DNA of 64,000 nt from Lentisphaera araneosa HTCC2155 (lineage in GTDB: Bacteria > Verrucomicrobiota > Lentisphaeria > Lentisphaerales > Lentisphaeraceae), in assembly GCF_000170755.1 (NCBI RefSeq), contig NZ_ABCK01000001.1:124001-188000 (forward strand), given 5' to 3'. Positions 45,420-59,664 of this stretch are shown here, piece after piece. Position 1 is the first letter of the stretch, and every line of letters starts with the position of its first letter. The notes under the pieces are model-generated. The model worked only from the letters and a program-made list of their open reading frames with translations, did not search any database and was not told the DNA's origin. Position numbers and translations under genes: made by a program.

Positions 45420-46112
45420 TTATTCTTCTGCTACTTTATAGCCGATACCTCGTACAGTAATGATATTGGGAGCAAAATCACCAACTTTACGTCTGATTGA
45501 AAGAATGTGCACATCCACGGTTCTCTCTGTAATAATAACATCTTCGCCACGGATTTTTTCTAGAATTGCTTCACGTGAATAAACGCGTCCAGGGTGTTTA
45601 CAGAGGAAAAATAAGAGCTTGTATTCAACTGGCGTTAAATTGAGCAGTTTTCCATCGAGTTTAACCGAGAAGTCAGCTAAGTTCATGACTAAACCTTTGT
45701 GAGTAATGACATCATCACTACTAAAGTCGGTGTGATCTAAATGAGCACGTCTGAAAGCTGCATTGATTTTTGCAACGAGAATCTTTGGATTGAAAGGTTT
45801 CGTGATATAATCATCCGCACCAAGTTCAAGACCTGTTAATTGATGATTTTCATCAGAGCGAACCGATAACATAAAGATGGGGATACTCGTGGTGGAAATG
45901 TGTTTCTTGAGTGCCTGACAAACTTCAGTGCCATCAATATCGTCCAACATACCATCAAGAAGAATTAGACTAGGGTGTTCATCTTCAGCTATTTGAATAG
46001 CTTCTTTACCTTTTGAAGTGATTTTCACATCAAAACCCGCATTGATTAGAGCATGCTTAATAAGCTCTTGAGTTACGAGTTCATCTTCGACTACTAAAAT
46101 ACTCTTCTTCAT
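45420..46112 (-). CDS. OmpR/PhoB-family response regulator (second PhoB-like copy)
   Basis: A two-domain DNA-binding regulator. Receiver domain with acidic pair VEDE, phosphoacceptor Asp in LILLDGMLDDID, and LGADDYITKPF with the conserved Lys. The winged-helix effector ends GRVYSREAILEKIRGEDVIITERTVDVHILSIRRKV. That recognition stretch is almost identical to the PhoB-like regulator at 48018, so both may bind the same sites. It lies 139 bases downstream of phoR's end, after a stretch with no strong terminator, so it may be on the pho transcript or have its own promoter. AAGG is well placed. Sensor partner is presumably PhoR or another kinase. Confidence 0.94.
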   Translation of the reverse strand: MKKSILVVEDELVTQELIKHALINAGFDVKITSKGKEAIQIAEDEHPSLILLDGMLDDIDGTEVCQALKKHISTTSIPIFMLSVRSDENHQLTGLELGADDYITKPFNPKILVAKINAAFRRAHLDHTDFSSDDVITHKGLVMNLADFSVKLDGKLLNLTPVEYKLLFFLCKHPGRVYSREAILEKIRGEDVIITERTVDVHILSIRRKVGDFAPNIITVRGIGYKVAEE

Positions 46113-46251
46113 AGTGACCTTCTCCCTGATTCACTGAATAAACTATATAATAACAATAGATTAGGCTTTTTGTTTTTCGAGCAGAAAAAAAATAAATAAT
46201 TCAAATGAATACTTAAATTTTTTGTACTATTGAGTATTTTTTTTCGGTCAA

Positions 46252-48021
46252 TTAACTTTTTTGAAGATTTTTTGGCAGGTAAAGACTAAAGGTACAACCA
46301 TTGCCCAAGCTAGAATCTAAATGGATTTTCCCATTATGGAGTTGGGCAATATGTTTAACAATAGCTAATCCTAAACCAGAGCCACCTGTATTTCGGTCAC
46401 GTGATTCATCCATACGGAAGAAACGTTCAAAAATTCGACCTTGGAATTTAGTATGTATACCTGGGCCATTATCAGAGACTCGAATAATCCAATGGTTCTC
46501 AGAGTCCGCTAAAGATAAAGTGACCAGTGGGGCATCTTTGTGGGAATAACGTATAGCATTCTCTAGAAGATTTCTGACAGCTAACTCAACTAGACTGTGA
46601 TTGGCTACAATAACTTGATCCTCAAAGCCACTTACTAAAGAAACGTTTTTCTTATTTATTTCATCAGAAGTTAGTGCAACAATATTCTGAAGGGTATGAG
46701 CAATGTTTTTCTCCATAAAACCAAAATTCTGATTTTTTTCATCAATTTCCAGCCTAGAAAGAATGAGCAGGTCTTGGATGATATCATTAATTCTATGCGT
46801 ATTCCGTTTAATAATATTATAGAAATATTTGATTTGATCGGGGTCATCGAGGCAATCTTCCATCGCTTCCAAAAAACCCATTGTAACGGTTATAGGAGTT
46901 TTAAGCTCGTGAGAAACATTAGAGACAAACTCTTTTCTTACATTTTGCAGCTTTCGCAAACGTGTAATGTCATTGATCACAATAAGAGACCCTTTGCTTC
47001 GGCTCCCAAGACTTATTCGCACCAGTTTAACGACCATATTAGTTTCTTTAGCATTGCGAAAGATATCTAAATTGTCTTCTGAATACGTGGATTCGGAATG
47101 TATAAAATCGTTAGAAAGGCGTGAAAGTTCAGAACTTTTATATGTTTGCATGATGAAAGCCCCCTTTACTTTTTTCGGGGCTTCAATATTAAAAAACTCA
47201 AAACTCAATTGATTGGCATTGATGATGCGATTTTCATCATCCACAATAATTACACCGAGCGGAATGGAGTTGAAGAATGTTTCCCAGTATTGAATTTCTA
47301 ATTTAAGTTTCTTTCTGACGCTTTTTGAGCGCTTGCGGAACTTTGTTTGTAACATGAGAATTTTCATTAACTGAGGGATACCCTCATAATTATCCACCTC
47401 TTTACTTGAAGAGGTAAAGGTCTTGCTGATAGTGATTAAATCGCGCTGTGTGGGTAAGCCAATAGATACCACAATGAGCAGGCTGATAATCGCACTTATA
47501 ATTAAACTGCGAAACAAAGACTGGTAGGCCATGCCTATGTATGGATTGGGGATCTCATAGGTTTTATCAATGATGATCATTTTTTTGAATTGATCATTTT
47601 TCACCGATAAAGGAAAGTAACAACGGACAAAAACTGTGCGATTTTCATTGTTATATGACGAAAAAGTTTGAGCCTCAGGCGATTGCAGGAGCTCTTCAAT
47701 CGCTTGTTTGTCCCTCAGTTGATGCTTCGTGGCAGTACTCGATGCCAACATGTTTCCCTTGATGTCAACTAGGTGAACATCAGCATCAAGTTTTTTAGAG
47801 AGAGAGAACAGAAATTCTCTATCTGCTTGAGAGCTCTTATGGGAGATTTGTTGCTGGAGTATAAGAGAAGCGGCTGAACTTTTTAATTCTTCTTCATGAT
47901 CAATCGTTTCTTTTTGGAGTAATTCAAAAACAAATGAGCACACAAAAAGTATGACAATTGACAATAGGAAAACACGACGACTCAGCCAATAAATATATGA
48001 AGCGGTGTTGACTGGCTTCAT
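46252..48021 (-). CDS. phoR: Phosphate-regulon sensor histidine kinase PhoR-like
   Basis: An inner-membrane sensor kinase of 589 residues. Two helices (RRVFLLSIVILFVCSFVFEL and SLFRSLIISAIISLLIVVSI) flank a periplasmic domain of about 110 residues, larger than in E. coli PhoR. A PAS domain (FFNSIPLGVIIVDDENRIINAN) precedes the HisKA H-box FVSNVSHELKTPITV; the ATP-binding N-box is ELAVRNLLENAIRYS, with DNGPGI and GGSGLGLAIVKHI. The start overlaps the upstream phoB stop by 4 bases. Placed directly after phoB in the pst-phoU-phoB-phoR order, it should sense phosphate through Pst/PhoU. Confidence 0.92.
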   Translation of the reverse strand: MKPVNTASYIYWLSRRVFLLSIVILFVCSFVFELLQKETIDHEEELKSSAASLILQQQISHKSSQADREFLFSLSKKLDADVHLVDIKGNMLASSTATKHQLRDKQAIEELLQSPEAQTFSSYNNENRTVFVRCYFPLSVKNDQFKKMIIIDKTYEIPNPYIGMAYQSLFRSLIISAIISLLIVVSIGLPTQRDLITISKTFTSSSKEVDNYEGIPQLMKILMLQTKFRKRSKSVRKKLKLEIQYWETFFNSIPLGVIIVDDENRIINANQLSFEFFNIEAPKKVKGAFIMQTYKSSELSRLSNDFIHSESTYSEDNLDIFRNAKETNMVVKLVRISLGSRSKGSLIVINDITRLRKLQNVRKEFVSNVSHELKTPITVTMGFLEAMEDCLDDPDQIKYFYNIIKRNTHRINDIIQDLLILSRLEIDEKNQNFGFMEKNIAHTLQNIVALTSDEINKKNVSLVSGFEDQVIVANHSLVELAVRNLLENAIRYSHKDAPLVTLSLADSENHWIIRVSDNGPGIHTKFQGRIFERFFRMDESRDRNTGGSGLGLAIVKHIAQLHNGKIHLDSSLGNGCTFSLYLPKNLQKS

Positions 48022-48707
48022 GCTTTGATTCTGTAACCCACTCCTCTTACAGTTTCGATATAACTTTCAAAACCGGGGATTTTACGTCTTAAGGATAGAA
48101 TATGAACATCTACTGTTCTCCCTGTGATAATCACATCATCGCCACGAATTTCTTCGAGAATTCTTTCACGTGTGTAAACGCGACCTGGCTTTTTACACAA
48201 GAAATAGAGTAGGTTATATTCTACAGCAGTCAGTTTCACTGGCTGTTCCTCGTAAGTTATAGAGAAGTCAGCCTTATTCATCACAAGTTTTTCATGACGA
48301 AGAATATCTTCATCATGGCTAAGGTCTTTATTTTGTGCAGCACGCTTAATTGTAGCACTTACTTTAGCGGAGAGAACTTTTGGACTAAATGGCTTTGTGA
48401 TGTAGTCATCGGCGCCTAAACGAATGCCAATGATTTGATCGGTTTCATCAGTACGAGCACTCAACATAATAATTGGGATATTTGCCGTTGATTTATCATT
48501 TTTTAAGCGGTAACAAATATCATTGCCATCCATGCCAGGAAGCATGCCATCAAGAATAATGAGGTCGGGCGCATGAGTTTCAGTCATTTTGATTGCCTTT
48601 GAACCATCACCGGTGCAAATGACGTCGTAACCTTCTTTACCTAAAGTCAGTTTAAGGAGCTCTTGAATATCGGGCTCATCATCAACTACTAAAACTCGCT
48701 TTGCCAT
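48018..48707 (-). CDS. phoB: Phosphate-regulon response regulator PhoB-like
   Basis: OmpR-family regulator of 229 residues. Receiver: VVDDEPDIQELL, phospho-Asp in LIILDGMLPGMDG, LGADDYITKPFSPK. Winged helix: GRVYTRERILEEIRGDDVIITGRTVDVHILSLRRK, ending RGVGYRIKA. It begins 2 bases after the phoU stop and overlaps phoR by 4 bases, so phoU, phoB and phoR are coupled. It probably activates the pst operon and the Na/Pi transporter through the 11-bp TTAACA ladders found upstream of both. Confidence 0.93.
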   Translation of the reverse strand: MAKRVLVVDDEPDIQELLKLTLGKEGYDVICTGDGSKAIKMTETHAPDLIILDGMLPGMDGNDICYRLKNDKSTANIPIIMLSARTDETDQIIGIRLGADDYITKPFSPKVLSAKVSATIKRAAQNKDLSHDEDILRHEKLVMNKADFSITYEEQPVKLTAVEYNLLYFLCKKPGRVYTRERILEEIRGDDVIITGRTVDVHILSLRRKIPGFESYIETVRGVGYRIKA

Positions 48708-48709
48708 CT

Positions 48710-49390
48710 TTAATCCTCGTCTTCTAAAATCATATTCTCGGGACTATGGCGAACAATTGATCCCGTAACCTTGTAATAAATATCTTCACAAATATTTGTA
48801 AAGTAATCGGCAATTCTTTCTAAAGTTCGTGAAATCGAGAAGTAGTAAAGCAATTGGTCCGTCATTTCAGGAGACTCTTGAATTTTTTCTTTTAATTCAG
48901 ATAAAAGACTCTTGTTGAGTGCGTCAATCGAATTATCAAGTTCACAAACTTGAATAACAGTTTCAATGTCGTCTTTGTAAGCACAATCAATCGTTAGATT
49001 CATCATATTAAGAACTTTCGGGAACATCTCTTGAAGTTTATCTGGAACATCAATAGCGCCCGCTTTAAGCGATTTTTTGATGTAGCGGCAGATGTTACTG
49101 CAAAGATCACCCACACGTTCCAAGTCATTATTGATCTTGAGGAAACTAATCACTTCACGTAAGTCAGAGGCAACTGGTTGATAGAGAGCTAAGATTTTCA
49201 AAGCATTCTCTTCGATAATAATCTCAGCGTCATTGATTTTTTGATCTGCTTTGATGACTTTATTTGCCAAAGCTTTATCCATATCTAATAAGGCTTTGTA
49301 CGTCATATTTAAACTAGAATTAACATCACCACCAAGTTCGAGGAGTTGATTTCTAAGAACGTTGATTTCTCTTTGCATATGTGTTTTCAT
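48710..49390 (-). CDS. phoU: Phosphate-transport regulator PhoU
   Basis: Cytoplasmic PhoU: an all-helical two-repeat protein that couples the Pst transporter to PhoR and dampens phosphate uptake. Repeat signatures: VIKADQKINDAEIIIEENALKILALYQPVASDLREVIS and LERVGDLCSNICRY, and again LYYFSISRTLERIADYFTNICEDIYY, each carrying the E/D-x-x-D metal motif. Length 226 matches the family. AGGAG precedes the ATG. Order pstB-phoU-phoB-phoR is typical. Confidence 0.96.
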   Translation of the reverse strand: MKTHMQREINVLRNQLLELGGDVNSSLNMTYKALLDMDKALANKVIKADQKINDAEIIIEENALKILALYQPVASDLREVISFLKINNDLERVGDLCSNICRYIKKSLKAGAIDVPDKLQEMFPKVLNMMNLTIDCAYKDDIETVIQVCELDNSIDALNKSLLSELKEKIQESPEMTDQLLYYFSISRTLERIADYFTNICEDIYYKVTGSIVRHSPENMILEDED

Positions 49391-49408
49391 TTTCTTCTCT
49401 CCTAAAAA

Positions 49409-50176
49409 TTAACCGAAACGACCGCTAATATAATCTTCTGTTTGTTTTTGACTTGGGTTTGAGAAAATTAACTCAGTTTGGTCATACTCAATAAGTTTCC
49501 CCATATAAAAGAAAGCTGTCTTATCTGATACACGTGCTGCTTGGTGCATGTTATGAGTTACTATAACAATTGTGAAGTCTTTTTTCAACTCATGAATCAG
49601 TTCTTCAATTTTAACTGTTGCTAAAGGGTCAAGAGCCGAACAAGGTTCATCCATGAGGATGATCTCTGGTTGACACGCAATGGCTCGCGCGATACAAAGA
49701 CGTTGCTTCTGACCACCAGAAAGACCGAGGGCATTGGCATCGAGACGATCTTTTACTTCTTCCCAAAGAGCCGCTGACTTCAAACTTTTTTCAACAACTG
49801 CATCTAATTCAGCTTTGTTACTGCGACCCGCAATTCTCAACCCATAAACAATATTTTCGTAAATAGATTTCGGAAAGGGATTGGAATGCTGGAATACCAT
49901 CCCAACACGACGACGCAAAGCGATAACATCAGTTGATTTTGAGTAAATGCTCGAACCATTAATGGTAATATCACCTTTGTGATTAATACCATCAACTAAA
50001 TCGTTCATGCGATTCATATTGCGAAGTAGGGTGGATTTACCACAACCTGAAGGGCCAATATAAGCCACAACTTCTTTTTCGGGAATATCCATGTTAACAT
50101 CGAAAAGAACTTGATGGGAACCGTAGGAGAAATCAAAGTTTTTGATTTGTATGAGTTGTTTATTAGCAGTGCTCAT
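49409..50176 (-). CDS. pstB: Phosphate ABC transporter ATP-binding protein
   Basis: Cytoplasmic ATPase of the high-affinity phosphate importer. Walker [14 protein letters not shown]-loop [10 protein letters not shown], signature [19 protein letters not shown], Walker [15 protein letters not shown] and the switch His in [13 protein letters not shown]. Length 255 is standard. It lies between pstA and phoU with short gaps. Confidence 0.98.
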
Positions 50177-50208
50177 GATTAATACCTATAAGTTTAATAA
50201 AAATTTTC

Positions 50209-51864
50209 TTAGAATGCGCCAGTCGCAAAACGTTTCTTTAGTCTTTGGCGAATTATAATACCTGCCAGGTTAAGACCTGTGACGGTGAGAATTAAAAAGA
50301 GTGTGGTCGCATAAACCATTGGCTTAGCCGCTTCTGAGTCAGGTGACTGGAAACCAAGGTCATAAATATGGAAGCCTAAGTGCATGAATTTCTGGTCGAT
50401 GTGCACAAAGGGGTAAGTGGCATTCACCGGCAAACTCGGTGCGAGTTTTACAACGCCCACTAACATCAGTGGCGCTACTTCACCAGCTCCACGAGCCATG
50501 GCTAAAATCATTCCTGTAATTATACCTGGTGTTGCAGAAGGCAGGATCACTGTCCAGATTGACTGCCACTTAGTTGCACCGCAGCCCATTGCACCTTCAC
50601 GAAGGCCATGGGGTACTGACGAGAGTGCTTCTTCAGTAGAGACAATAACCACTGGCAGAGTCATCAATGCGAGTGTTAATGAAGCCCAAAGTAAACCACC
50701 TGTACCGAAAATAGGTTCGCCAGTGGCGAGCTTCCAGTCTTTAAAGAAGAAGTCATCGATGTTTGAACCTATGAAATAAATAAAGAAACCTAAGCCAAAG
50801 GCACCAAATACGATAGAGGGCACACCAGCTAGGTTATTGATCGCGATGCGAACGGCACGAGTCACTAAGCTGTCTTTTGCATATTCGTGAAGATAGATAG
50901 CGGTAATGACACCAAAGAATGTCACGGGAATACACATAACGATCGTCATTACTAAGGTACCAATAATCGCAGGGAATATACCACCTTCAGTATTAGCTTC
51001 ACGAGGATATGCTGTAACATACTCATAAACATTTTCAAAGAACAAAGAGAGACGACTCATTGTCCCCAGTTGATTGGGGAAGTTGTAGCGAATGACTTCA
51101 CCAATAGGCATTTCGTAAGTCATACCATTAGGGTTAACCTGCACAGTTAAGCTATCTTTATCTTTTTCTTCGTAGAGATCATTTACTTTTTTGGCGTTCT
51201 CATCTGCACGAGCTTTGAGTTCTTTCATCTGAGCTTCTTCGGCAGAAGTGTCTTGCTCAGCTAATTGCTTCTTGTGAATGACGACTTTTAAATTTTTAAT
51301 TTCATTAGCTATATCTAATAGGATACCGCCAACAAGTTCTTCTGCTGCGTGTCTTTTATCAGCTGCATGTTGAATCGCATTATCAAATTCCTCAATAAAG
51401 TTGGCTGCAGAGGCTTCTATCTCTTTGCCATCAACCACAATTTTTAAAGGCTTGACAATCGCGCGAGATTCAGACTCACGTTCCATAATCATTACATTAG
51501 GATCGAGTTGCTCTGAAATATTTAATTGGCTCTCTTTAACGAAGATAAAACTATTGCCATAAGCATCCCTATTTGCAGTATAATACTGTACCGAGATAGG
51601 TTTTTCTTCTTTTGAGCGTCCTGGGATCTGTTGTTCAACTCTTTTAACTTCAATACCCCAGAAACTTGTGCTCGTACCCTTTTTATCACGAATAGCGAGT
51701 TCTTCAGGAACATTAACAGTAACAACGTCTTTAGGCCAGAAAACACTAAGGCCGTAGTAAAAGATAAGACCGAGAATGGATAATGTCATGATCAAGCCCG
51801 CTGAGAGCCCTAAACCGGTAATCCAGACGCGTGTTTCGCCTTTGATTTTATGTTCTTTAGACAT
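50209..51864 (-). CDS. pstA: Phosphate ABC transporter permease PstA with large periplasmic insert
   Basis: Inner-membrane permease with six helices in the C-terminal part and the EAA-like loop STEEALSSVPHGLREGAMGCGATKWQ. It is 551 residues, much longer than E. coli PstA (296). The extra residues (about 45-270) follow the first helix and include a Lys/Glu/Ala-rich coiled coil (KQLAEQDTSAEEAQMKELKARADE). Long PstA and PstC pairs of this kind are known from marine and Pseudomonas-type genomes, so this is an established variant. Its start is 3 bases from the pstC stop. Confidence 0.95.
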   Translation of the reverse strand: MSKEHKIKGETRVWITGLGLSAGLIMTLSILGLIFYYGLSVFWPKDVVTVNVPEELAIRDKKGTSTSFWGIEVKRVEQQIPGRSKEEKPISVQYYTANRDAYGNSFIFVKESQLNISEQLDPNVMIMERESESRAIVKPLKIVVDGKEIEASAANFIEEFDNAIQHAADKRHAAEELVGGILLDIANEIKNLKVVIHKKQLAEQDTSAEEAQMKELKARADENAKKVNDLYEEKDKDSLTVQVNPNGMTYEMPIGEVIRYNFPNQLGTMSRLSLFFENVYEYVTAYPREANTEGGIFPAIIGTLVMTIVMCIPVTFFGVITAIYLHEYAKDSLVTRAVRIAINNLAGVPSIVFGAFGLGFFIYFIGSNIDDFFFKDWKLATGEPIFGTGGLLWASLTLALMTLPVVIVSTEEALSSVPHGLREGAMGCGATKWQSIWTVILPSATPGIITGMILAMARGAGEVAPLMLVGVVKLAPSLPVNATYPFVHIDQKFMHLGFHIYDLGFQSPDSEAAKPMVYATTLFLILTVTGLNLAGIIIRQRLKKRFATGAF

Positions 51865-51866
51865 GA

Positions 51867-54089
51867 TTAAACTACCTTATATTTGTTGCGGATATACTGC
51901 CTCAGTATTTCTGCAATTGTATTGATGACAAAGGTCATAAGGAAAAGTAGGAGGGCACCTAGGAAAAGAGCTCTAAAAAGCGTTCCATCTTTAGGAGCTT
52001 CAGGTAACTCAGTTGCTAAGTTAACCGATAGAGTTCTCATACCGGAGAAAGGGTTGGTTTCCATAATCGATGTACCACCACAACAGAATAAGACAATCAT
52101 TGTTTCACCAACTGCGCGACCGAGGCCAATCATAATAGCGGAAAAAATACCTGCGGATGCAGTGGGGAGCACAACTTTTACTGCTGTTTGCCAGCGACTC
52201 GCACCAAGAGCAAGAGAACCTGATATGAGGTTTTGGGGTACATTGGATAGGGCATCCTCAGTAATTGTAAAGATGATAGGGATAACCGCAAAACCCATAG
52301 AGATACCAACGATGATTGCATTTTTAGATTCGTACTTCATTCCCAGTGAATGATTCCACCAAGATTTAAAACTATGATCAAAAATCATATTCTCAAAGAC
52401 GGGGCCGAGTTTCCATGCGACGATACCTGAAATCACGAGAACAGGAATCAACCAAAAGAATTCATATCCATTAGCACATTTAAGTTTTGAACCAAGAGGA
52501 ATCTTTGCTTGAATTCGTCCAAAAATCATCGTCATTAAGGGCAGTAAAACTAAGAGAGCAATAATAGAAGGGAATTTGTCTTCGACTTTTGGAGCTAACC
52601 AAATAGCACCAAAGAAACCAATAATAACGGAAGGCAAAGAAGCCATGATTTCCATCGTTGGTTTAACAATTTTTTTGAGGCTAGGGTGAAGGAACTGTGA
52701 TGTGTATAAGGCGGCGAATAAAGCGAGGGGAGTCGCAAATAACATCGCATAAAAAGTCGCTTTGAGTGTACCATAAACGAGGGGAATCATTGACATTTTG
52801 GATTCAGCTTCGTCAGTGCCTCCAGTGGACTCCCACTTATATGATTCTTCAGGAGCGCCTTCATAGTGAATTTTACCGAAGAAAGTTTTCCAGCTAGACT
52901 CGGGGTGGGGGTCATTTAAATTGTATTGCGATAAGTTATTATTTTCATCGAGGATAAAAATGTTATCATATTTCTTTGAGATGTTGATGCCAGTAATATT
53001 GGCTTTAGCAGTGTATTCCCAACGGGATTGTTCTGTAGTGAAATTATAGAGTCGAATCGTTTTATCAGAGCTGAGTAAAAAACTTTTATTACGTGTACTC
53101 CCACTATAGCGGAAGGTCTCACCTGCAGGCATGGCTTCGAGCTCGAGCTTCGTTTTATGAAAGAGTAGGGGAGTCTTTTCGTTTTCTTTATACATAGATA
53201 AGCCGACTACTGCGCCTTGCTTATCGACTGTAATTAATGACATATCGCCAAGAACTGGAGCAAGTACTGTGTTTTCCACATCTCCTAAAGCTTCTTCTTG
53301 GAATTTTTCAGGTTTGCTGCCTCGGCAGTGAAAGATAGTGAGCTTACCTTTGTTATCAGCTAAACTAATCATATTAGCTTGATTCGAAACGAGGATTGAT
53401 TTAACTCTATTCTCTAATTGTATGTCGTAAGTTTCTTCAATCTCTAAATCTCCGGCATTACCAAAAAGATCAACTTCTTGGGCAAGGTAAGCGACTTTAA
53501 CTTCTTCTTGTTCGCCGTTTTGGATGAGGGCCCCAACTAATTTATCTTCGTCTTGGGCACCGTAAGAGATGGCTGATATAGGGTGTTTGCTTTGGAAATT
53601 GAATTTGCCTGCGATACTCGGGGCAAAAACGGTCACCCATTCATCACCTTTTTCAACGCGCGAGTAATTAACGTCGATAATAAAAAATCGACCTTGGTTA
53701 GAGCCGGCAACAAACTGTTCTTTTGATTGATTGTAGTCAGCGGCACTGATGATTTCGTCTTTATTTAGGCCGAGAAATTCTTTTAAGGAAATTGTTTGTA
53801 AAACATCGCCAGTTTTGGCGGATTGGAATATGAGGTTTTCTGAATCAATTGTAGTAGGGACATTAGACCATTCGTCAAACCCCCAATCGTGGATTTTTGA
53901 GCTTTCAAGTTTTATCGTTTTTACATGTTCAATTTTAGCTTTCTGAACAAGAGGGGCTACTTCATAAGAAATGTAGACCAAAAGGCACATCACAGCTGCA
54001 ATGATACCCACGCCACAGACTTTTATGGCAACAGACATAAACTTATCTACGAGTAGAGTTCGCTTAGCTGTCTTAAGTGTAGATGACAT
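51867..54089 (-). CDS. pstC: Phosphate ABC transporter permease PstC with N-terminal propeller-like insert
   Basis: Inner-membrane permease paired with PstA. After the first helix (about residues 20-45) comes a roughly 350-residue periplasmic region of repeated beta strands, with WD40-like features (RLYNFTTEQSRWEYTAKANI, NIFILDENNNLSQYNL). The six-helix permease follows, with EAA loop ITEDALSNVPQNLISGSLALGASRWQ. E. coli PstC lacks the insert; long versions occur in several marine bacteria. The longest frame begins at a TTG at 54128; I chose the ATG at 54089, because AAGGA lies 8 bases before it and the upstream codons would fall within an intergenic hairpin. Confidence 0.95.
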   Translation of the reverse strand: MSSTLKTAKRTLLVDKFMSVAIKVCGVGIIAAVMCLLVYISYEVAPLVQKAKIEHVKTIKLESSKIHDWGFDEWSNVPTTIDSENLIFQSAKTGDVLQTISLKEFLGLNKDEIISAADYNQSKEQFVAGSNQGRFFIIDVNYSRVEKGDEWVTVFAPSIAGKFNFQSKHPISAISYGAQDEDKLVGALIQNGEQEEVKVAYLAQEVDLFGNAGDLEIEETYDIQLENRVKSILVSNQANMISLADNKGKLTIFHCRGSKPEKFQEEALGDVENTVLAPVLGDMSLITVDKQGAVVGLSMYKENEKTPLLFHKTKLELEAMPAGETFRYSGSTRNKSFLLSSDKTIRLYNFTTEQSRWEYTAKANITGINISKKYDNIFILDENNNLSQYNLNDPHPESSWKTFFGKIHYEGAPEESYKWESTGGTDEAESKMSMIPLVYGTLKATFYAMLFATPLALFAALYTSQFLHPSLKKIVKPTMEIMASLPSVIIGFFGAIWLAPKVEDKFPSIIALLVLLPLMTMIFGRIQAKIPLGSKLKCANGYEFFWLIPVLVISGIVAWKLGPVFENMIFDHSFKSWWNHSLGMKYESKNAIIVGISMGFAVIPIIFTITEDALSNVPQNLISGSLALGASRWQTAVKVVLPTASAGIFSAIMIGLGRAVGETMIVLFCCGGTSIMETNPFSGMRTLSVNLATELPEAPKDGTLFRALFLGALLLFLMTFVINTIAEILRQYIRNKYKVV

Positions 54090-54115
54090 ATTGTTTTCCT
54101 TTATAAAATAAAAAT

Positions 54116-54144
54116 ATGATGGGATCAATAATAGATCCCATCAT
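54116..54144 (-). terminator. Intercistronic hairpin between pstS and pstC (attenuator or processing signal)
   Basis: Inverted repeat with 11-bp arms (ATGATGGGATC and GATCCCATCAT) and a 7-base loop, starting 25 bases past the pstS stop on the minus strand. T-rich sequence (ATTTTTATTTTA) follows. Such hairpins after pstS give more binding protein than permease, by partial termination or mRNA stabilisation; that role is inferred here. Confidence 0.7.
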
Positions 54145-54169
54145 CAATTTTGTAAAAATCTATATGTGA

Positions 54170-55123
54170 TTAATTCAGGCTTTTTACAATCTTGTCAGCC
54201 ATTTTTGCAGGAAGTGGGTAGTAACCGTCTTTTGCAACGATCTCTTGACCTTCTTTAGAGAGAACAAACTTGAGGAATTCAAGTGTAAGTGTGTCAAGTT
54301 TTTGACCTGGTTTCTTGTTCACGTAGATATAGAGAACTCGTGCAAGAGGATATTTTCTGTTGAGGCAGTTTTTAATCGTTGGTTCGTAAAAAGTTTCGCC
54401 ATCTTTTGTAAGTGGCACAACGCGAACTTCAGAAGTTCTATAACCGATACCAGAGTAACCGATACCAGAGATTTCTTTAGCAATTGAGCTAATTACAGAA
54501 GAAGAACCAGGCATTTCTTTAACGTTAGCTTTGAAGTCACCCTTAGCAAGTGCGTGCTTCTTGAAGTAACCGTAAGTACCAGAAGCAGAGTTACGACCGT
54601 ACATTGAGATCGTTGTGTTTGCCCAGCTACCAGTCATACCAAGGTCACCCCAAGTTTTAACGTCTGAACCGCCGTGCTTATAAGTAGAAGAGAAGATACC
54701 GTCGAGATCTTTGAAGTTAAGACCTTTAATTGGGTTATCTTTGTGTACGTATACAGCGAGAGCGTCGATTGATACGCCAACTGGTGTTGGTTTGTAACCG
54801 AACTTTTTCTCGAAAGCGTCGAGCTCTTTTTCTTTCATCATACGGCTCATAGGAGCGAGCTGAGAAACACCTTCGATAAGTGCTGGAGGTGCAGTAGAAG
54901 AACCTTTACCTTCAACCTGAATTTTTACGTTAGGGTATTTCTTTTGGAAAGATTCACTCCAAAGAGCCATAAGGTTATTGAGTGTATCAGAACCTACAGA
55001 GTTAAGGTTACCAGAAAGTGAGCTAACTGGCTTGTAAGTTGCGAGGTTTTCGTCTACTGCAGAAGCAGTTGTTACAGTGAGGGCAGCTGCCGTGAAGGCG
55101 AATGCTTTTTTGAGGAAGTGCAT
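54170..55123 (-). CDS. pstS: Phosphate ABC transporter substrate-binding protein PstS
   Basis: Periplasmic phosphate-binding protein with a signal peptide (MHFLKKAFAFTAAALTVTTASA, cleaved after ASA). Phosphate-contact motifs: GSDTLNNLMALW, GKGSSTAPPALIEG, YGRNSASGTYGYF and ISGIGYSGIGYRTSEV. I chose the ATG at 55123: AGGA lies about 9 bases upstream and the encoded signal peptide is clean, whereas the ATG at 55144 has no SD. It is the first gene of pstS-pstC-pstA-pstB-phoU-phoB-phoR and lies 87 bases downstream of a Pho-box-like ladder. Confidence 0.96.
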   Translation of the reverse strand: MHFLKKAFAFTAAALTVTTASAVDENLATYKPVSSLSGNLNSVGSDTLNNLMALWSESFQKKYPNVKIQVEGKGSSTAPPALIEGVSQLAPMSRMMKEKELDAFEKKFGYKPTPVGVSIDALAVYVHKDNPIKGLNFKDLDGIFSSTYKHGGSDVKTWGDLGMTGSWANTTISMYGRNSASGTYGYFKKHALAKGDFKANVKEMPGSSSVISSIAKEISGIGYSGIGYRTSEVRVVPLTKDGETFYEPTIKNCLNRKYPLARVLYIYVNKKPGQKLDTLTLEFLKFVLSKEGQEIVAKDGYYPLPAKMADKIVKSLN

Positions 55124-55209
55124 GTTTGTTTTTCCTAGTTTCATTTTTAGGTTATGATTTAAGATGCATCACTATTACCGCATGCTTTGAGCTTCATCAA
55201 AATCTAAGT

Positions 55210-55249
55210 AGTCAAAGTCCGATTAAACCTTTGTTAAGCTTATGTTAAG
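55210..55249 (-). promoter_or_regulatory. Pho-box-like ladder upstream of pstS
   Basis: On the minus strand four 7-mers recur at exactly 11-bp steps: CTTAACA, CTTAACA, TTTAATC and TTTGACT (plus-strand starts 55243, 55232, 55221 and 55210). The two perfect copies are followed by TAAG and AAGG. Direct 7-mer repeats with 4-base spacers are the hallmark of PhoB/PhoP sites; a matching ladder is found upstream of the Na/Pi gene. Confidence 0.75.
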
Positions 55250-55283
55250 CGATTGAGAGACTCTTAACTAAGCTTCCAAGCAA

Positions 55284-55314
55284 GAAAAAAGGCCTGAACA
55301 GAATGTTCAGACCT
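55284..55314 (-). terminator. Rho-independent terminator of the Na/Pi cotransporter gene
   Basis: Hairpin AGGCCTGAACA-gaa-TGTTCAGACCT (11-bp arms, one mismatch), 31 bases past the stop and followed on the minus strand by a T run (TTTTTTC). It separates this gene from pstS, so pstS needs its own promoter. Confidence 0.85.
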
Positions 55315-55344
55315 TAATAAGTTCTATACTTTAAGTGTAATTCT

Positions 55345-57285
55345 TTATTTAATACCCGCGCGAGTTTCAGCAACGTGGAGAATCAAAGTCTTGATCTTTC
55401 TATAAGAATTAATCACATCAGTGAATGTTGTACTGAGTAAAGGGTCCATGCGCTTGTCAGAAAGGCGTTCCCAATGATTTGAACGGTATTTGCGGATCTC
55501 AGCAGTGATTTCTTCAGAACGAACCGAAGCTTCAGAGTGAATAGCTTGATCATTCTTATCAGGATTTTGAATCTTTTTGTAGAAAGTAGTAATCAGCTCA
55601 TGAAGCTCTAAAATCTCACTTTTCTGCTTATCATTAAATTCTAAGTTATTATCTTCAAGTCTCTTAAAGTGTTTAACAATAGTCATGATGTAATCAGAGA
55701 TCGATTCGTATTCATCGGCAAGTAGAAGTTGTTTTTTAGCTTCTTCTGATTCATCGGTGTTGAGAGCTTGGCTCATGACATCAGTTAAGAAGTCGGTCAC
55801 TTCAGTTTGAACTTTGTCTAATATATCTTCTGTACGGAAAATATTACGACTGAGTTTTTTATGATCGCCGTTGCCTTCAATGAAGTTTTTGAGGTCAACG
55901 AGCATAAGATCAGATTTATGTTCCATCTTTTTGATCTCATGCGCACTCTGCTCAATCGCTGCGAAAGGTGAATCGTACATCTGGAAGTCGAGATTCGTGA
56001 GGTATTTATCACCCGTAACCTTTTTGTCTTTAACGATGTTGTTAAGGATCTTAGCTGCTACAGCAGTGAAAGGTAAGAAGAAGAGAACATTAGCCACGTT
56101 AAAGATGGTGTGAACCATGGCAATACCTGCAGTCATGTATGGGAAAGTTAAGACTTCTTGGCCATCAATAACTTCAGTTACTGAAGCATTGATATCTGTA
56201 ATATCTTTGAAGCGACCCATGAACCAAGTGATGAATTCCATGTATTGAGAGAAAATGAGCGTGATCCAGAAAACACCAACTAAGTTGAAGAAAATGTGGA
56301 AGTAGGCCGCGCGTTTGGCGTTGGTTGAAGCACCAATTGATGCAAGGAAAGCGGTGATTGTGGTACCAATATTTTCACCGAGTACAAGTGCAGCTGCAGT
56401 TTCAAAAGGAATAACACCTGTGGTGGCGAGAGCAATGGTAATACCGAGTGTTGCCGAAGAGGATTGAACAATAACAGTTAGGATACAGCCAACAAGAGCA
56501 CATTTGAGAACGCCAATATAAGAACCCGCAGTGAAGTAAGAGAACGCTTTTTCAAATTCTTGTAATTCTTTCATCGGTTTGAAACCATTTTTCATCAGTT
56601 CAAGACCGAAGAAAACCATACCGACACCCATAATAGCCATAGAGATGAATTTAACTTTTTCTTTCTTATTAAAGAGGAACGTAAAAGCAGCTATCCCTAG
56701 AATAGGAAGACCCCATTTACCGATTTTAAGGGCAATAACCCAGCCTGTAATAGTCGTACCGATATTCGCACCGAGAATAACACCAATAGCTTGTTGTAGC
56801 GCCATAATACCGGAGTTAACAAAACCTACCGCCATTACAGTAGTTACTGAAGAAGATTGGACGAGAACTGTAAGAAAAACACCTGCAATACATGCGAGCA
56901 CACGGTTGTTTGTCACCATCTTAATACATTTTTTAAGGGAGGGGCCAGCAACTTTCTGAATACCATCAGACATGAAGCGCATACCTAATAAGAAGATGCC
57001 TAGACCACCTAGAAGTGAGAAAACCATTTTCTGAATGATTTTTGAATCGAGCTTTTTATATTCTTTCTTAAGACTTTTAACAAGGGGCTTAGTGTCTGCT
57101 TTCTCAGCACTTTCTAATTGAGCTTCTGATTCCAAGGCCATCTTTGAATCGACTGCTTGAGCGGCTGAATCTTCTGATTGACTTAATTCACTTTGAACAG
57201 CTTGTGGTGGTGCGGGTGTTTCTTGGGCAAATGTAGGTGAAATAACGCTAAAAAGAAGCGTTGTTAGAAGTAAGAATTTTTTCAT
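55345..57285 (-). CDS. Na+/phosphate cotransporter family protein with PhoU-like tail
   Basis: Inner-membrane Na/Pi cotransporter of the NptA/YjbB group. A signal-like N-terminus (MKKFLLLTTLLFSVISPTFA) and a polar Gln/Ser/Glu-rich segment precede the transport domain. Two inverted repeats each hold the family QSSS motif: TVLVQSSSVTTVMAVGFVNSG and TVIVQSSSATLGITIALA, with GANIGTTITGW and GENIGTTITAFLAS. From about residue 430 a PhoU-like helical domain follows (FRTEDILDKVQTEVTDFL, LADEYESISDYIMTIVKHFKRLE). It may import or export phosphate. A three-to-four-repeat Pho-box ladder at 57349-57377 places it in the phosphate regulon. Confidence 0.92.
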   Translation of the reverse strand: MKKFLLLTTLLFSVISPTFAQETPAPPQAVQSELSQSEDSAAQAVDSKMALESEAQLESAEKADTKPLVKSLKKEYKKLDSKIIQKMVFSLLGGLGIFLLGMRFMSDGIQKVAGPSLKKCIKMVTNNRVLACIAGVFLTVLVQSSSVTTVMAVGFVNSGIMALQQAIGVILGANIGTTITGWVIALKIGKWGLPILGIAAFTFLFNKKEKVKFISMAIMGVGMVFFGLELMKNGFKPMKELQEFEKAFSYFTAGSYIGVLKCALVGCILTVIVQSSSATLGITIALATTGVIPFETAAALVLGENIGTTITAFLASIGASTNAKRAAYFHIFFNLVGVFWITLIFSQYMEFITWFMGRFKDITDINASVTEVIDGQEVLTFPYMTAGIAMVHTIFNVANVLFFLPFTAVAAKILNNIVKDKKVTGDKYLTNLDFQMYDSPFAAIEQSAHEIKKMEHKSDLMLVDLKNFIEGNGDHKKLSRNIFRTEDILDKVQTEVTDFLTDVMSQALNTDESEEAKKQLLLADEYESISDYIMTIVKHFKRLEDNNLEFNDKQKSEILELHELITTFYKKIQNPDKNDQAIHSEASVRSEEITAEIRKYRSNHWERLSDKRMDPLLSTTFTDVINSYRKIKTLILHVAETRAGIK

Positions 57286-57348
57286 TTTCTTCCTGTGTTG
57301 TGATTCCTTGTCATCTCAGTTTTGAAGAACTCCGACTTAAGAATCTTT

Positions 57349-57377
57349 AGTTAAGAAATGGTTAGACAATTGTTAAA
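57349..57377 (-). promoter_or_regulatory. Pho-box-like ladder upstream of the Na/Pi cotransporter
   Basis: On the minus strand TTTAACA-attg-TCTAACC-attt-CTTAACT-aaag: three 7-mers at exactly 11-bp steps (plus-strand starts 57371, 57360 and 57349). A weaker fourth copy, CTAAACC, falls at 57382. Same period and near-identical word as the pstS ladder. It lies about 65-90 bases before the start codon. Confidence 0.72.
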
Positions 57378-57501
57378 GATTGGTTTAGCGGGAGTTACTT
57401 ACAGGCTGTATAACAAATTTCAAATGAACAAGTAAGGAAATAAATCAACACAAGGAATAATCTAGCTTATTTATAGTTGATTTGTATTCACGAAGATGAA
57501 C

Positions 57502-59664
57502 TTATGCTTTGATAAGCAATTCTTGAATGGCGGTCCATTCACTCTGTTCTTTAGTGAATAAGATTCTCAGCTTCTTGATGCTTAGCTCTTGGATATTTAC
57601 TTTCGAAACCCCATCAACAAAATCACTTATTTTATGGAAGTCTGAGCCATCACTCGAATAAAGTAACTCAGCTTCTTCAACTAAACTGCGCAGTGTTTTG
57701 GGAACACCTGAACGTATTTCTAAATGAGAGGCCTTGAGTGGCTCCTCAAAAATAAAATCGATAAATTCTCCCGGCATATAAGGAGTAGGGACCCAAACAT
57801 AAAGTTCTCTATTTCCTTTCCCCGCATTAGACTCTGGTTCCTGATAACGGGCTTTGCGATAAGTCTTGATTTGATAAGGATAATGACTGTACTGGCTTTC
57901 CTGGATGTCATCAAAATTCGGGACGCGACTGACGCTTGACCACGATCCACAAGGACTGAGAAGTCGAGCTTTAAAGTCACTAAGCTCATCAGTGCTGATG
58001 GGCATGGTGTAGACTTCACTCGATTGAGTCGGCGTCGAGCCATCAGTGCTGAAATACACTTGATCATTTGGATCTTGCTTAATAAGAGAAACCGTCTTGT
58101 TTTTATAAACGATTTGCGGCTTATTAATTCTCGATGGAAAACCCTTGCTCTTTAAGTCATGACAATGATAATTCTTATAGCGTTTCATTAAGTTGGGCCA
58201 ATTTTTCTCTGAACTCCAAGCCACTTCGCTAGCAGCTAAAAGTCGTGGAAATATTTGTTCCCAAATAAAATCTTTTTGATCTAAGTATTCAGCCCATAAA
58301 CAAATGCCATAGCCCTTAACGAGCGCAGTATTGTTTAAGTCCTCTAAAGGTTCATAAGAATAAACTTTCTCCATGTCCAAGAAGCCCGCCCAAGAATGGC
58401 CTCGTTCAAAGGGGCCTTGAGCCATATCAATATAGCAGTAGGGGCCCGGGCACAAAATAACTGGTATCTCTCGAGCTAAAGCTTCTTTTGCGGGATCAAC
58501 ACCTTCCCAGGACATAATCGTCGTGTCTTGAGGAAGATTGGGGTCGGCTAAACTTTCATTCCAAGCCACAACTTCTTTACCAAGTGACTTCACAGTTTGA
58601 TGAACTTGTCTAAAGAAATGATCTTGTAACTGCCGACTCGAATTAAAATGATTCGTCTCGATAGCCTTTTGACAAGATTCACAATTATCCCAATGCGCGC
58701 GTTCAACTTCATCATTGCCAATATGGATGTATTGAGAAGGGAAGAGTTCGGAAACTTCAGTTAAAATCTGCTTGAGAAAAACCAAGTTTTCATTTCTTGA
58801 AGGGCAAATGGTGTTGAGTTTAACGCCTTTATCTAAAAGTTGCTGAGAGACGGGACTGCAGCGCGTTTCAGGATATGAATTGACTATGGCAAGTGAATGG
58901 CCAGGAATATCAATTTCTGGAATGATTTCAATACCGAGCTGAGCTGCGTAGCTAATAAGTTCCCTTACTTCATCTTTACTATAAAAGCCTCCATAGCGTT
59001 TTTGACCCGATCCGCGATCGGGGGGAAGGATTTCATCGGGGCCACGCCAGGCACCTTTTTGGGTTAAATCGGGGAAAGCATCAATCTCTAAACGCCATCC
59101 TTCATCATCACATAAATGCCAATGAAATACATTGATTTTATAAAAGGATAATTGCTCAAAAAGGCGCTTAAGTGTCTCGATGGAGAAAAATTGTCTCGAG
59201 CAATCAAGGGTAAAAGAACGCCAGGGAAAGCGTGGGAAATCATTCAAACTCAATAGGGGGATGGCCACAGCCTTAATCTCACGAATCCCCACGGGAATGA
59301 GCTGTTTGATTGAATAAACCGCATACAAAAAGCCCGATGAATCATGAGCTTTGATCTGAATTTTATGGGAGTCTACATTGATTGCATAAGCTTCTTTAGC
59401 CATATCGGCCTCAACAAACTCAATCACTTGATCAGCAGAATCACTCGACTGAACACCAAGATTTTCCAAATACGATTTTAAATGGTTACAGGCAATTTCA
59501 GCCTCAGAACTTTTCACATCAAACTTCAAACAATCACTAAAAACAAAGTAGCCAGACCATACTTGCACATCCTGTGGCTTCGGAATGATGTTAACACAAT
59601 TCCAAGCTCGAGCACGCTCACGTATAAACTGACGAATTGTCCCTATAGATCTTTTATGTCGCAT
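57502..59664 (-). CDS. GH20 beta-N-acetylhexosaminidase
   Basis: Removes terminal N-acetylhexosamine (EC 3.2.1.52 family). An N-terminal GH20b domain (NIIPKPQDVQVWSG onward) is followed by the barrel: DCSRQFFSIETLKR, NVFHWHLCDDEGWRLEID, PEIDIPGHSLAI and the catalytic pair in HIGNDEVERAHW near residue 316. The usual sequence is HIGGDE; Asn replaces Gly here. A C-terminal CHB/HEX-like domain (VYFSTDGSTPTQSSEVYT) and an F5/8C-like end (SHLEIRSGVP, KLRILFTKEQSEW) follow. No signal peptide is seen, so it may be cytoplasmic. A perfect CATAATAT/ATATTATG palindrome overlaps the start codon. It lies downstream of the acyltransferase on the same strand (32-base gap). Confidence 0.93.
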   Translation of the reverse strand: MRHKRSIGTIRQFIRERARAWNCVNIIPKPQDVQVWSGYFVFSDCLKFDVKSSEAEIACNHLKSYLENLGVQSSDSADQVIEFVEADMAKEAYAINVDSHKIQIKAHDSSGFLYAVYSIKQLIPVGIREIKAVAIPLLSLNDFPRFPWRSFTLDCSRQFFSIETLKRLFEQLSFYKINVFHWHLCDDEGWRLEIDAFPDLTQKGAWRGPDEILPPDRGSGQKRYGGFYSKDEVRELISYAAQLGIEIIPEIDIPGHSLAIVNSYPETRCSPVSQQLLDKGVKLNTICPSRNENLVFLKQILTEVSELFPSQYIHIGNDEVERAHWDNCESCQKAIETNHFNSSRQLQDHFFRQVHQTVKSLGKEVVAWNESLADPNLPQDTTIMSWEGVDPAKEALAREIPVILCPGPYCYIDMAQGPFERGHSWAGFLDMEKVYSYEPLEDLNNTALVKGYGICLWAEYLDQKDFIWEQIFPRLLAASEVAWSSEKNWPNLMKRYKNYHCHDLKSKGFPSRINKPQIVYKNKTVSLIKQDPNDQVYFSTDGSTPTQSSEVYTMPISTDELSDFKARLLSPCGSWSSVSRVPNFDDIQESQYSHYPYQIKTYRKARYQEPESNAGKGNRELYVWVPTPYMPGEFIDFIFEEPLKASHLEIRSGVPKTLRSLVEEAELLYSSDGSDFHKISDFVDGVSKVNIQELSIKKLRILFTKEQSEWTAIQELLIKA

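Follow-up and report, generated by a model that had tools for sequence, protein, structure and literature searches.

Organisation of the phosphate genes

The window, by which we mean the whole 64-kb stretch of DNA that was analysed, carries a set of phosphate genes, all on the minus strand, headed by an nptA-like Na/Pi cotransporter gene (55345..57285). Its product (646 aa) scores above the cut-offs of both Na_Pi_cotrans (PF02690, 3.2e-61) and TIGR00704, which assigns it to the Na/Pi symporters; phosphate import is its presumed function. Its C-terminal PhoU domain is weak (PF01895, E 7.7e-4, 20.2 bits where 23.5 is the cut-off). Downstream of nptA lie pstS (54170..55144), encoding the phosphate-binding protein (TIGR02136), pstC (51867..54128), pstA (50209..51864), the ATPase gene pstB (49409..50176), phoU (48710..49390, TIGR02135 above cut-off), a gene for a PhoB-like response regulator of the OmpR family (48018..48707) and one for a PhoR/PnpS-like histidine kinase (46252..48021). 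The assignment of pstB is based on its sequence and operon position, a 90% identical protein being encoded in the pst operon of the congener G001. PstC (753 aa) and PstA (551 aa) are each extended by a long stretch at the N-terminus, which in PstC gives weak beta-propeller (WD40-like) matches.

Four related genomes (G001, G002, G004 and G005) share with the window the gene order pstSCAB-phoU-phoB-phoR, so that the PhoB-like regulator is encoded together with the pst genes, phoU and phoR. A second PhoB-like regulator gene, here called phoB2 (45420..46112), is found beyond the kinase gene; in G001 it is a neighbour of nptA. PhoB is the best-scoring family for both regulators, with scores below the equivalog cut-off of TIGR02154 (296.2 bits) in each case (240.6 bits for the PhoB-like regulator and 222.6 bits for PhoB2).

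Between nptA and pstS there is a hairpin resembling an intrinsic terminator (55289..55315, minus strand), with 12 pairs and a T-rich tail, making it likely that the two genes are transcribed separately. The first-pass annotation, which placed the repeats upstream of nptA in front of a separate transcript, is thereby supported.

Two four-unit ladders at promoter positions

Upstream of nptA, on the minus strand, we found a ladder of four short units repeated at 11-bp steps (57345..57388, the last 4-bp linker included). Three of these units, TTTAACA (57377-57371), TCTAACC (57366-57360) and CTTAACT (57355-57349), had already been reported in the first-pass annotation as an exact 11-bp series, which is correct for the minus strand (57377-57349); a fourth unit, CTAAACC (57388-57382), had been overlooked and lies one 11-bp step further upstream. 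A ladder of the same kind, CTTAACA/CTTAACA/TTTAATC/TTTGACT, precedes pstS (55206..55249, minus strand). The nptA ladder thus has two of the features by which a Pho box is recognised, namely units of about 7 conserved bp with a period of 11 bp, present at least twice (here four times) and common to a known phosphate-starvation gene of the same organism, in this case pstS.

At both promoters a TAN3A hexamer begins exactly 10 bp past the third unit, TAAAGA in the case of nptA (57344..57349, minus strand) and TACTTA in that of pstS (55205..55210, minus strand). As 10 bp also separate the Pho boxes from the -10 element in E. coli, according to part of the account in PMC1906773, these hexamers may be read as candidate -10 elements.

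The last nptA unit (CTTAACT) abuts the presumed -10, an arrangement that could also suit a repressor. PhoB might then bind the ladder and repress or tune nptA, with NptA serving for low-affinity transport when phosphate is plentiful, or else working as an exporter in the manner of YjbB of E. coli. In favour of such a role, NptA-type transporters are termed low-affinity in a passage of PMC12981677. Against it, the nptA promoter resembles that of pstS, which is a classic activated gene, in unit order, in spacing and in having TAN3A 10 bp past the third unit, and nptA of Staphylococcus aureus is described, in the relevant part of PMC13170248, as induced by low phosphate through PhoPR. We therefore regard repression or mere tuning as very unlikely and activation as the probable outcome of PhoB binding at nptA.

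Downstream of the ladder, the nptA leader (57286-57348) is conserved at 51 of 63 positions in three species and contains GTCGGAGTT...AAAACTGAGATGAC. An RNA element in this leader was considered and rejected, as a search of positions 54000-58000 against Rfam, with E values up to 1, gave no match there or elsewhere in the interval.

Rarity of the ladder

In the whole genome of 6,023,180 bases the pattern TTAACN6TTAACN6TTAAC, with at most one mismatch, occurs at exactly two sites, which are the nptA and pstS ladders. They lie about 2.1 kb apart, each in the promoter position of phosphate genes. The claim of the first-pass annotation that the two promoters share both the word and the period, and that chance is an unlikely cause of this, is thus borne out. 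The four-unit pattern (YTNAAY)x4, again with at most one mismatch, has three genomic sites (two in the backwards control), of which two are the same ladders and the third (L103) is on the strand opposite to that of the adjoining gene, which is TonB-receptor-like.

Scoring with a seven-column matrix gave a similar picture. The matrix was trained on 18 units from the pstS promoters of five relatives, with the window and all nptA sequence excluded, and when four units were scored across the window it ranked the pstS ladder first (28.7) and the nptA ladder second (25.9), the best other non-overlapping site reaching 14.9. Neither score was reached in any of 20000 dinucleotide shuffles, and other step lengths (7-10 and 12-16 bp) gave nothing comparable to 11 bp. 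A profile model built from the pstS/phoB ladders of 10 relatives likewise singled out the pstS and nptA ladders, with E values of 7.7e-6 and 0.013, as its only hits in the window. In the whole genome the same model placed pstS first (E 7e-4), and nptA was not listed, 150 of 2581 first-look candidates having been scored; with the 12.9 bits that it obtained in the window search, it would have ranked second.

The possibility that the nptA ladder is a chance resemblance in AT-rich intergenic DNA has to be weighed against these results. The three-unit pattern read backwards matches the genome at three sites, and such patterns therefore do arise randomly. However, the two forward sites both fall within about 2.1 kb of sequence at promoters of phosphate genes, no shuffle attained their scores, and the register of the ladder is kept in G001 (see below). 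A chance origin is thus strongly disfavoured, its probability being close to nil, and we reject it. The second Na/Pi paralogue of the same genome (L075) has no ladder (n4 686/2000 shuffles).

Conservation at nptA orthologues

Five other genomes of the family were searched (G001-G005, G002 being Lentisphaera marina IMCC11369), and nptA was found in all of them except G003. The first-pass annotation had made conservation of the ladder upstream of nptA orthologues a test of its proposal; the outcome is mixed, the ladder being full in one of the four orthologues, decayed in one and absent in two.

The full ladder is that of G001, where the units CTGAACC, TTTAACA, TATAATG and ATTAATA stand in register (0/2000 shuffles) even though nptA and the pst operon are on different contigs there. 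In Lentisphaera marina the ladder is degraded to two or three units, consisting of CCAAACC and two CTTAACA words, the latter 21 rather than 22 bp apart, and is not significant (n4 68/2000). The nptA gene of this species (L071:9997-11580; also L078) also looks broken, with an in-frame stop near codon 31 and about 100 codons lost between the two QSSS repeats. In the sister genus, represented by G004 and G005, nptA and pstS are transcribed divergently, and of the ladders only that facing pstS is clear; no ladder faces nptA in G005 (n4 1148/2000), and in G004 the nptA-facing signal (n4 18/2000) overlaps the pstS-facing ladder and is unconvincing as a ladder of nptA. At these loci (L006 and L007) the two genes share one intergenic region.

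In an alignment of nptA upstream regions from three species, the A-A core shows no variation in any of the four units, which follow one another every 11 bp. Invariant positions make up 18/28 of the units, 2/12 of the linkers and 17/42 of the sequence upstream, the units differing from the linkers with a Fisher p of 0.014 and from the upstream sequence with a p of 0.087. Together with the register in G001 and the state of the Lentisphaera marina locus, this argues for a ladder conserved within the genus, its decay in Lentisphaera marina appearing to accompany decay of the gene.

The placement of the genes is more variable. In the window the pst-pho operon stands between nptA and phoB2 (45420-57285), whereas in G001 nptA and phoB2 adjoin (L069 and L070), and the cluster has therefore been rearranged within the genus. 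A rival reading is that the ladder is bound mainly by PhoB2 (45420-46112), which would place nptA in a regulatory branch in part distinct from the pst regulon. In G001 phoB2 directly follows nptA and is 96.5% identical to that of the window, and in the translations the stretch RTVDVHILSIRRK of PhoB2, presumably the recognition helix, is nearly the same as the corresponding stretch RTVDVHILSLRRK of PhoB, so that both proteins could read the same word. For these two reasons PhoB2 is retained as a rival binder. On the other hand, the same ladder stands in front of the operon that contains pstS together with phoB, and is found at the pstS genes of relatives where no phoB2 is nearby. Terminator-like hairpins also follow nptA in both genomes (in G001 as judged by eye), and nptA and phoB2 hence need not be co-transcribed. 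We consider it unlikely that PhoB2 is the main binder, and the PhoB-like protein of the pst operon is preferred.

Occurrence of the ladder at other loci

All six family genomes have a ladder in front of pstS, with only two clear units in G003, and in G037 and G052, two other genomes of the class, a ladder precedes phoB-like genes. Of the held-out pstS-like loci, 3 of 18 have a ladder (L105, L111 and L113, n4 up to 3/1000), the other 15 being weaker or negative; a 19th locus gave no usable upstream sequence. Among more distant nptA homologues of the class, one in 25 has a suggestive ladder (L024, three units, 4/1000).

Outside the class, 13 of 14 nptA loci were usable, and these included one clear case (L092, four units, 0/1000) and one weak case (L090). 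The former belongs to a Nitrospirae MAG with an nptA-phoU-phoB-phoR cluster (L092:9888-14149) and has its four-unit ladder upstream of nptA, which suggests that the link between nptA and the ladder recurs.

With regard to a wider regulon, the doublet YTTAAYN5YTTAAY occurs at 38 genomic sites against 76 in the backwards control, and doublets are therefore uninformative. Scoring was carried out on 45 loci, 11 from a family-wide four-unit search and 34 from the genome itself, several of which repeat pstS; the eight of the 38 doublet sites without a locus were left out. Among the 45 scored loci, a three-unit score above 20 together with a downstream phosphate gene was found only at pstS promoters and at nptA. 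A site of G004 (L093) reached 21.1, no ORF being found downstream of it.

Predicted regulation of nptA

The nptA ladder is best read as a putative Pho box of the same type as the CTTAACCT boxes of cyanobacteria. With a promoter match beyond chance, PhoB/PhoR-like genes in the pst operon and the ladder recurring at the pstS and phoB genes of relatives, control of nptA by PhoB is the reading that we favour, and we estimate the probability that phosphorylated PhoB activates nptA together with pst at roughly 0.85. Because the same four-step repeat stands at nptA and at the pst operon, both would probably be induced jointly under phosphate scarcity.

Under such a model, low phosphate would lead the PhoR-like kinase to phosphorylate the PhoB-like regulator, both supplied by the neighbouring pst operon, and monomers of the phosphorylated regulator would occupy the four 11-bp units in a head-to-tail row. 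RNA polymerase would then be recruited to a promoter with its -10 immediately downstream of the ladder, the nptA transcript would rise along with that of pstSCAB-phoU-phoB-phoR, and sodium-driven phosphate import by NptA would be added to the ATP-driven Pst system.

A more elaborate arrangement may be imagined, with nptA and phoB2 as a second branch of phosphate sensing. In it, NptA would signal sodium-driven phosphate flux to the regulators through its PhoU-like tail, as has been proposed for NptA of S. aureus, and the shared ladder would allow the two PhoB paralogues of this marine PVC bacterium to balance uptake powered by ATP against uptake powered by sodium. We offer this as speculation and think it quite improbable.

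Comparison with known Pho systems

Searches of the open-licence literature brought up no paper dealing with a Pho box or Pho regulon in Lentisphaerota. The present analysis provides a well-supported predicted PhoB operator sequence for this phylum and predicts that its Pho regulon includes a sodium-driven phosphate importer. Within the PVC superphylum, a ChIP-seq motif is available for PhoB of Waddlia chondrophila (Chlamydiae), whose regulon is said to be specialised in part of the account in PMC4989314, where the authors also call for PhoB regulons to be defined in other PVC members. The likeness to our case is that of a PVC PhoB with a motif and involves no comparison of motif letters.

A close match in sequence is seen with the SphR boxes of cyanobacteria (Synechocystis sphX, pstS and phoA), which consist, as set out in a section of PMC1906773, of at least three tandem 8-bp CTTAACCT units with 3-bp linkers and so agree with our ladders both in the word and in the 11-bp period. 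They differ in phylum, in the number of units, which is four here, and in that an NptA-type transporter is among the targets here. With the pho box of E. coli, described in part of PMC4415409 as 11-bp direct-repeat units of 7 conserved and 4 less conserved bp bound head to tail, the ladder has the direct-repeat unit length in common but not the word, which is CTGTCAT in E. coli and YTTAAC here.

In terms of regulation, a close counterpart is Staphylococcus aureus, where nptA is PhoPR-dependent and NptA and Pst both rise at low phosphate, as reported in a portion of PMC13170248; there too an NptA with a PhoU domain and pstSCAB are both under a phosphate two-component system. The idea of Pho-controlled nptA is therefore already known, and what is added here is its predicted occurrence in Lentisphaerota with a defined operator. 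The evidence in S. aureus is experimental and ours is predictive, the phylum differs, and the likeness between the two rests on regulation rather than on the sequence of the Pho box.
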